From NCBI GenBank assembly GCA_027021085.1, contig JALUVB010000303.1, positions 1 to 5,153 of the forward strand: a stretch of DNA of 5,153 nucleotides, given 5' to 3'. Positions 1,721 through 3,799 of the stretch are shown here, one piece after another (position 1 is the stretch's first letter; every line of letters starts with the position of its first letter). Below the pieces are notes generated by a model, which did not search any database, had not been told where the DNA came from, and saw nothing but the letters and a program-made list of their open reading frames with translations. Position numbers and translations under genes: made by a program. Source of the stretch: a bacterium. GTDB lineage: Bacteria > CAIJMQ01 > JAADFP01.

Positions 1721-2275
1721 ATGAGAAAAAGAAAAAAATTACTGGTTTATCCCCCTGTGCAGTGGAGATTAATAGTGTGGTGGGTAATTCTACTTTCTAT
1801 ATTTACTGCAAGCATAAGCTGGCTTATTTTCTATTTAAGCTGGTCTTCTGCGCTGGAATGGAGCACAACAACCGGCGCCCAGACCAACCTTACTGAAATA
1901 TTCAATAAACTTACCGATGTGGTAATTATATCTCTCATAGGGTCTGTGCTTTTGAGCGCGTTAGTGGGGACCATTGTGGGATTATTTATAACCCACAGAA
2001 TAGTAGGGCCTATATATCGGCTCAAATCAGTATTGCGGGAGATGAAAGAAGGAAAAACCGTGGAAGAAATTAAGTTGAGAAAGAGCGACGAATTTCATGA
2101 TTTAGCAGAAGAGTTTAATTCTCTTCTCCAAAGTTTTACCGGCCTTAAGAAAGCTGTAGAAGAAGCAAGGGGGAAAATAGAAGAATTCTCCGGGAAAGAA
2201 AAGATAGAGAAAAGCGATTTGGAAAATATTTTGCAAATCTTAGAAGGAGGAGTAAAAAATGAGAAAGAGAAGTAA
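1721..2275 (+). CDS. Small two-helix membrane protein with a HAMP domain and no output domain
   Basis: The 184-residue product starts with a basic segment (MRKRKK), then a transmembrane helix at about 17-40, a short external loop of about 26 residues, a second helix at about 67-91, and a cytoplasmic HAMP domain at about 92-140. HAMP features seen are the conserved proline in VGPIYRLK (P97), the amphipathic helix through about 110, and the SDEFHDLAEEFN block (D123-E124) that opens the second helix. The tail (140-184) is charged and likely coiled coil. HAMP domains pass conformational signals from membrane helices to kinase or chemotaxis modules, yet no such module follows here. The protein may therefore act through a separate partner or as a scaffold. 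It overlaps the downstream prepilin gene by 17 bases, so the two are almost surely co-translated. The external loop is too small to be a ligand-binding domain. The HAMP call is sound; the specific role is unknown. Confidence 0.85.
   Translation: MRKRKKLLVYPPVQWRLIVWWVILLSIFTASISWLIFYLSWSSALEWSTTTGAQTNLTEIFNKLTDVVIISLIGSVLLSALVGTIVGLFITHRIVGPIYRLKSVLREMKEGKTVEEIKLRKSDEFHDLAEEFNSLLQSFTGLKKAVEEARGKIEEFSGKEKIEKSDLENILQILEGGVKNEKEK
2244..2252 (+). promoter_or_regulatory. Ribosome binding site of the prepilin gene, inside the HAMP gene
   Basis: AAGGAGGAG at 2244-2252 lies within the last codons of the HAMP gene. Its GGAGG core ends eight bases before the ATG at 2259. The strong site shows that the overlapping downstream start is genuine. 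Confidence 0.85.
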
Positions 2276-3476
2276 GAGGAAAGGGTTTACTCTTATTGAG
2301 CTAACGGTAGTAATTGGTATTATTATACTTCTCACGGGGATAGGGTTACTATCGTACAAAGCTCTTCTGGATAAGACCCGAAAAATAGCTTGCGATACGA
2401 ACCTGAGGGCTATAAACCTTGCTCTCAACATGTATCTTAACGATTACGGGAGATTCCCCTCTACTGGCAGCGACCTGGTAAGGGCATTATCTGAATATAA
2501 TATTTCACCTTCACAGTTCCATTGCGTTGAGGATCCGGTAAAAAATCATAACACCTATTTATCTTTTTACTTACAGCGTTCTACCCGTCCGGATAACCTG
2601 GCTTTTGTATTAGGATGTCCATACCATTCCAGGGGTGAAAAGTCCCTGGCACTCTTGTACGGAGATGAGCCAAAAGAACTGGAGAATCTCAAAGTAACTT
2701 TAAACGGCTCACCGACAAAATTTGGTCAAAGTATGAGCTTGCGGAGAGGGGACGAAATTGATTATCAGCTTAAAGATGGTAATACATTTGCCACAGTCAA
2801 CGTTACACAAAACATAGACGACGCCGCGATAATAGCTGCATTTTCTCTCCCCAGTGGAAAGCCCTACGGGATACTGAAAATAAACGATGAAGGAGCAGTT
2901 GATGTCCAGGTAAGAACAGGCTCACGTTTCGAGGTGGCTACCCCCTCCACAATTGCAGGGGTGCAGGGAACACGTTTTACTGTAACGGTAAGCATAGAAG
3001 ATGATGATTATGTTACTACCATTGATGTAACAGAAGGTACAGTAGTAGCCACTACTTTCCCGGAGACAATCAAGGCCTTAAAAGATTCGACAGAGATAAG
3101 AAAGATAAAATTCCCCATAGAGGCAGGTCATACAGGAACAGTGAGAAGAAGAATTCCTTACTATGTTCCCCATCGGATAAAAATAGTTCCTCGCTATATC
3201 CGCTTAAAAGTAGGCCAGACAGTGAAATTTGAGGTAATAGGATACGACAAGGACGGACAAAGCAGGAAAATGGGCATGGATGATGACGATAATAAAAAGG
3301 GTCACCATGAGGATAATGAGGTGGAAGGAGAAGTAGAGTGGACACTTTTCCCCTACTTGTGGCCATCGGGAAGACTTGACGATGATGGTAACTATACTGC
3401 TATACGGCGTGGGGTGGACAAGATAAGAGCCAAGGTTGGTCCACGTAAAGCCTATGCCTATATATTTGTGCGTTAA
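2259..3476 (+). CDS. Prepilin-type protein with GspG-like stalk, FecR-like domain and Ig-like domain
   Basis: The 405-residue product begins with a class III (prepilin) signal: basic leader MRKRSKRKG, cleavage expected after G9, then FTLIEL with glutamate at +5 (E14) and a hydrophobic helix to about residue 31. Residues 45-80 (ALNMYLNDYGRFPSTGSDL) resemble the major pseudopilin GspG. C89 and C120, in FHCVEDP and LGCPYH, could form a disulfide. Residues about 160-265 look like a FecR beta domain, ending in ATPSTIAGVQGTRFTV (227-242) and a DVTEGTVV strand. Residues about 305-405 resemble a bacterial Ig-like (Big_2-type) domain, with VGQTVKFEVIGYDKDG, VEWTL, DDDGNYTA and a final beta strand. Its middle carries an Asp/His-rich loop at 341-353. 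Expected location is the periplasm or cell surface after prepilin peptidase processing. A typical GspG is about 140 residues, so about 250 residues are added. The prepilin call is certain, the FecR and Ig calls are likely, and the biological role is unknown. Confidence 0.9.
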   Translation: MRKRSKRKGFTLIELTVVIGIIILLTGIGLLSYKALLDKTRKIACDTNLRAINLALNMYLNDYGRFPSTGSDLVRALSEYNISPSQFHCVEDPVKNHNTYLSFYLQRSTRPDNLAFVLGCPYHSRGEKSLALLYGDEPKELENLKVTLNGSPTKFGQSMSLRRGDEIDYQLKDGNTFATVNVTQNIDDAAIIAAFSLPSGKPYGILKINDEGAVDVQVRTGSRFEVATPSTIAGVQGTRFTVTVSIEDDDYVTTIDVTEGTVVATTFPETIKALKDSTEIRKIKFPIEAGHTGTVRRRIPYYVPHRIKIVPRYIRLKVGQTVKFEVIGYDKDGQSRKMGMDDDDNKKGHHEDNEVEGEVEWTLFPYLWPSGRLDDDGNYTAIRRGVDKIRAKVGPRKAYAYIFVR

Positions 3477-3765: not shown

Positions 3766-3799
3766 AGTCTATAGTCTATGGTCTATAGTCTATAGTCTT
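3766..3799. repeat. Tandem 7-bp repeat AGTCTAT, nearly five copies
   Basis: Copies lie at 3766-3772, 3773-3779, 3780-3786 (GGTCTAT, one change), 3787-3793 and a partial copy from 3794. The array is intergenic and ends about 35 bases upstream of the -10 box of the radical SAM gene. The array is directly visible; whether its length varies is not known. Confidence 0.9.

Follow-up and report, generated by a model that had tools for sequence, protein, structure and literature searches.

A predicted prepilin carrying FecR and Ig-like domains beside a HAMP-only gene in Calescibacterota

RESULTS

A three-part prepilin overlaps a HAMP-only gene

A 405 aa modular prepilin, encoded at positions 2259–3476 of the window, very probably combines a prepilin N-terminus, a FecR domain, and a Big_2-like Ig domain, and its gene overlaps by 17 bp that of a small HAMP-only protein. 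The window is the whole stretch of DNA that was analyzed (5,153 nucleotides, contig C303). It belongs to a genome of 1.93 Mb in 307 contigs from an uncultured bacterium of the candidate phylum Calescibacterota. The prepilin with its parts, its ribosome binding site, and the partner gene lie on the plus strand. The prepilin was recognized from its open reading frame, its match to the Pfam N_methyl family, and a relative of the same architecture in a second genome (G002:C25).

The protein begins with MRKRSKRKGFTLIELTVV, a textbook prepilin start. The type III (prepilin) leader covers aa 1–9 (2259–2285) and reads MRKRSKRKG^FTLIE, with the glutamate at mature position 5; N_methyl matched aa 4–28 (E = 2.9e-5, 23.9 bits against a cut-off of 21.2). 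Predicted cleavage before F10 would yield a mature pilin of 396 aa and 44.4 kDa. The pilin N-terminal helix was assigned to aa 10–63 (2286–2447) from a hydrophobic stretch and a helix predicted at aa 12–63. A ribosome binding site, AAGGAGG (2244–2250), sits within the upstream partner gene.

FecR and Ig-like domains

The FecR domain, all-beta and PupR CJM-like, was assigned to aa 144–298 (2688–3152). Pfam FecR (PF04773) matched aa 210–262 with profile positions 46–96 of 97 (E = 4.3e-6, 27.5 bits against a gathering cut-off of 24); the first half of the domain had no Pfam match and is visible in the predicted structure. The prepilin was modeled by AlphaFold2 on a two-sequence alignment, and the best of five models (mean pLDDT 66; the others about 50) was used. 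By region, the model is best for FecR (pLDDT approximately 58–93 over aa 150–298), fair for the Ig part (55–81 over most of aa 306–404 outside an insert at aa 339–361), and poor for the insert and for aa 88–142 of the head. In this model, aa 144–298 superimposed on the PupR CJM subdomain (6ovk) with Z 12.5 and 2.5 Å over 117 residues, and on BDI_1681 (4m0n) with Z 12.0 (VIA-align 2).

The FecR part was also similar to the NCBIfam Lsa33 model (E = 2.4e-4). Lsa33 is a Leptospira FecR-domain protein that binds laminin and plasminogen (PMC3444417). Both proteins thus have a FecR domain, in Lsa33 within a surface binding protein, but Lsa33 stands alone, uses lipoprotein-type export, and has no pilin part. 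The likeness is that of FecR domains generally and is no proof of adhesion.

The Big_2-type Ig-like domain was placed at aa 302–405 (3162–3473) by its fold match to LigA and by Foldseek. The modeled segment matched LigA (8gyr) with Z 12.8 and 1.6 Å over 83 residues and Big_2-CBM56 with Z 11.4, besides additional Big_2 domains and Ig domains of S-layers (VIA-align 2); against LigB (2mog), the Foldseek TMt was 0.69. When the Ig part alone was searched against Pfam, no Ig family, Big_2 (PF02368) included, matched up to E = 10, and the domain is therefore named Big_2-like by fold only. Modeled alone without an alignment, it reached a pLDDT of 38, so the Ig fold rests on the two-sequence model. Viral structure matches were Ig folds of tail proteins, which are uninformative on origin. 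The model predicts two separate domains that each match a different fitting family with Z > 11, which is beyond chance. Big_2-type domains are common among adhesins and S-layers. LigA and LigB of Leptospira are likewise surface binding proteins with a Big_2-type Ig domain, but they are separate proteins without a pilin part. An acidic, His- and Lys-rich insert, DDDDNKKGHHEDNEVEGE, lies within the Ig domain (aa 339–361, 3274–3342) and is missing in the relative; it is possibly a metal-binding loop.

These results bear out the domain order proposed from the letters alone in the first-pass annotation, with N_methyl and FecR above their Pfam cut-offs and the Ig part recognized by predicted fold. 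Of the two families that it named for the grafted part, PF04773 was recovered and PF02368 was not, while structure prediction returned a FecR and an Ig fold and not one unrelated fold. The part beyond the pilin is indeed present, although its size is approximately 260 aa (145–405) and not the proposed value of about 250.

A pilin head closer in sequence to DUF1559/H-X9-DG pilins than to GspG

The small head between helix and FecR domain (aa 64–144, 2448–2690) was assigned from hhalign and alignment, and it is poorly modeled. Its stretch after the helix, up to aa 91, aligned with an H-X9-DG/DUF1559 pilin encoded on contig C257 of the same genome (hhalign E = 6e-8, 33% identity), and cysteines 89 and 120 were also present in the relative. 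The similarity to the C257 pilin extends as far as the FxC(P)xD motif. Both genes have a homologous HAMP neighbor; however, the C257 pilin has a complete H-X9-DG end and neither a FecR nor an Ig domain. In the window protein, a CPYH...LLYGD stretch recalls the H-X9-DG end by eye only, and the NCBIfam model of this C-terminal motif (TIGR04294) was not matched.

The stalk had earlier been typed as GspG. The GspG equivalog scored 36.4 bits against a cut-off of 88.85, T2SSG scored 14.1 against 21 bits (E = 0.049), and no type II secretion gene adjoins the prepilin. By sequence, the head appears nearer to DUF1559/H-X9-DG pilins than to GspG, and the GspG label is traced to the generic similarity of N-terminal helices.

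One relative retains the gene pair

The phylum-wide search took in seven genomes. G002 belongs to another genus of the same family of Calescibacterota, and its pilin was 52% identical over the full length with the same three parts, as had been hoped for from a homologue search. It scored slightly under both cut-offs, with 20.1 bits for N_methyl and 21.0 bits for FecR, and the FecR part reached 24 bits when searched with its neighbors. The HAMP protein of this locus was 47% identical to that of the window. Both loci share the gene order pgpA(−), rimO(−), HAMP(+), prepilin-FecR-Ig(+), and the downstream genes differ: a B12 radical SAM gene in the window and phosphoglycerate mutase in the relative. 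The suggested adjacency to type II secretion genes was not borne out at either locus, and no filament gene adjoins the pair in the window. No signaling gene was found beside the pair in either genome.

The other family is represented by four genomes (G003–G006); no such protein was detected in them at E 1e-15, and their rimO neighborhoods carried no prepilin. Absence from G001 is uninformative because rimO is also missing from its 86% complete assembly. A contig scan across genomes gave no match with the prepilin as a single query and only the G002 relative with the two-sequence alignment; a search of plasmids gave no match, and a literature search for pili in Calescibacterota found no paper. 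Between the prepilin and the radical SAM gene of the window, there is a tandem repeat of AGTCTAT (4.7 copies, 3766–3798).

HAMP-only genes recur beside prepilins

The partner gene (1721–2275), overlooked in the first-pass annotation, encodes 184 aa with two predicted transmembrane helices, a HAMP domain, and a C-terminal coiled stretch. The HAMP domain scored 24.5 bits against a cut-off of 25, and the HAMP part of a WalK-type kinase was matched at 3.5e-10; profile searches revealed no output domain beyond HAMP. In the source genome, all three loci with close HAMP-only paralogues (window, C257, and C22) adjoin prepilin genes, and so do all four homologues in related genomes (two in G001 and two in G002). 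The C257 pair is convergent with 2 bp between the genes, and the C22 pair forms one operon with a 4 bp overlap; the C22-type copies reach no HAMP model and are HAMP-like through homology only. The chance of adjacency at three of three loci was approximately 5e-6 under a simple model (16 prepilin clusters, about 1900 genes) that counts paralogues as independent; this assumption does not hold, since the pairs may have co-duplicated. Co-duplication would itself mean that the pair was kept as a unit. As other HAMP-only genes accompany pilins without FecR, the pairing is not about FecR. A literature search for HAMP with pseudopilins returned nothing relevant. The HAMP protein is probably a helper or a sensor of the modular pilin.

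The other pairs differ in their pilins. At C22 (L079, 1067–2283 of G000:C22; L080 in G001:C159), the gene of a GspG-type prepilin with an extra beta-rich module of approximately 120 aa shares 4 bp with that of a HAMP-like two-helix protein. At C257 (L055, 1296–2341 of G000:C257; also L054 and L081), an H-X9-DG-type prepilin is convergent with a HAMP-only gene, and this arrangement is kept in three genomes with a 2 bp gap or a 4 bp overlap.

DISCUSSION

We consider it moderately likely that the protein is a trimodular minor type IV pilin that would display its FecR-Ig module on a filament for binding. This reading draws on the analogy with PilB of Streptococcus sanguinis, which adheres through a vWA module grafted on its small pilin part and is expected by the authors to sit at the tip (PMC8179133). 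Both proteins carry a bulky module on a small pilin module, in PilB an effector displayed on the filament; PilB differs in its vWA module and monoderm host, and a HAMP partner is not named for it in the part of that source consulted. The source genome has 27 N_methyl prepilin genes in 16 clusters, one prepilin peptidase match, four secretins, and seven T2SSE-type ATPase matches; thus, processing and assembly of the pilin are possible. The prepilin peptidase would cut before F10, and the helix would enter one of the type IV filaments of the genome, either a pilus or a pseudopilus. The FecR and Ig domains would then face outward, probably at the tip, and bind a surface, a polymer, or a partner protein. 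As a dedicated accessory, the small HAMP protein would remain in the inner membrane, where it may either hold the bulky pilin and hand it over or read its state.

Alternatively, the protein may serve as an envelope sensor, with the pilin mainly in the inner membrane or the state of the filament read there, and with ligand binding or tension passed through the HAMP helices to a cytoplasmic partner. The 17 bp overlap, the recurrence of HAMP-only genes beside prepilins in operons or convergent pairs, and the operon shared by the second FecR protein of the genome with a CHASE2 kinase are consistent with this. However, the HAMP protein lacks an output domain, no signaling gene adjoins it in either genome, and other HAMP-only genes pair with pilins without FecR, so that we regard this reading as possible but rather unlikely. 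A broader version is more doubtful still, namely that prepilin and HAMP-only protein form a recurrent two-gene module in which the HAMP protein would sense the membrane-bound or filament-bound pilin and the grafts (FecR-Ig in the window, a different beta module at C22, and none at C257) would tune one signaling design.

A structural pseudopilin of type II secretion, whose extra domains recognize an exported protein, would agree with the several T2SSE-type ATPases and secretins and with the generic N-terminal similarity to GspG. It is nonetheless improbable, as the gene lies outside any secretion cluster, the head is not GspG-like, and the size is far over that of usual pseudopilins. Docking to a secretin, in which the FecR domain would bind an N0/STN-like domain and gate or center the filament, is suggested by analogy: the domain has a CJM-type fold, the genome encodes secretins, and the PupR regulator binds the STN-family domain of the PupB transducer. 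But PupR needs both CJM and a C-terminal STN subdomain for this binding (PMC7186176), whereas the prepilin has CJM only, followed by Ig, which makes docking highly improbable. A classical FecR-type anti-sigma regulator of a TonB-dependent transducer has practically no chance of being correct, since only the FecR match favors it, no sigma or transducer gene adjoins the prepilin, and the one TonB-barrel match of the genome lies on another contig. Its anatomy rules out such a regulator: the CJM-type fold is shared with PupR/FecR proteins, but only nine residues precede a pilin helix that takes the place of a single-pass anchor, there is no cytoplasmic anti-sigma domain, and instead of an STN subdomain after CJM, aa 302–405 are predicted to fold as a Big_2-like Ig domain.

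The minor pilin reading places the protein within a known class. Raynaud et al. (2021) report over 1,200 modular pilins in 264 architectures and place pilin-IPR006860 among the 15 most frequent, without a clear function (PMC8179133). As IPR006860 is FecR, that is PF04773 (PMC5498481), the pilin-FecR fusion was already known in databases, and the surprise implied by the first-pass annotation falls away. The window protein has the prepilin N-terminus and the C-terminal non-pilin graft of this class, for which FecR is a frequent graft in that source, and its extra C-terminal domains are not pilus-specific (FecR above cut-off; FecR and Big_2-like folds). It differs from the pilin-IPR006860 entry, as far as that source describes it, in having a Big_2-like Ig domain after FecR and a gene paired with a HAMP-only gene. 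This added domain and the HAMP pairing appear to be the new part, within known modular pilins and not as a new kind of system, and the HAMP partner is the less expected part of the locus.

With this locus, the modular pilins gain a three-part example from a candidate phylum whose genomes are few. FecR is a frequent graft on pilins but is not known to have a function there, and a ligand for the window protein would inform the whole class. HAMP-only proteins beside prepilins offer a testable lead on a pilin partner; if the pairing reflects contact, subunits of type IV filaments would be linked directly to a signaling helix.

The genome encodes one other FecR protein (locus L057, 4564–9325 of G000:C43; L082 and L083), which is conserved in G001 and G002. 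It has an N-terminal hydrophobic anchor, FecR, and at the C-terminus a T2SSG (GspG-head) domain, but no pilin helix. Its gene is followed by a CHASE2-Ser/Thr kinase gene and an FHA-GAF-histidine kinase gene. With the window prepilin, FecR and GspG-type parts have been joined twice in this genome, differently each time.
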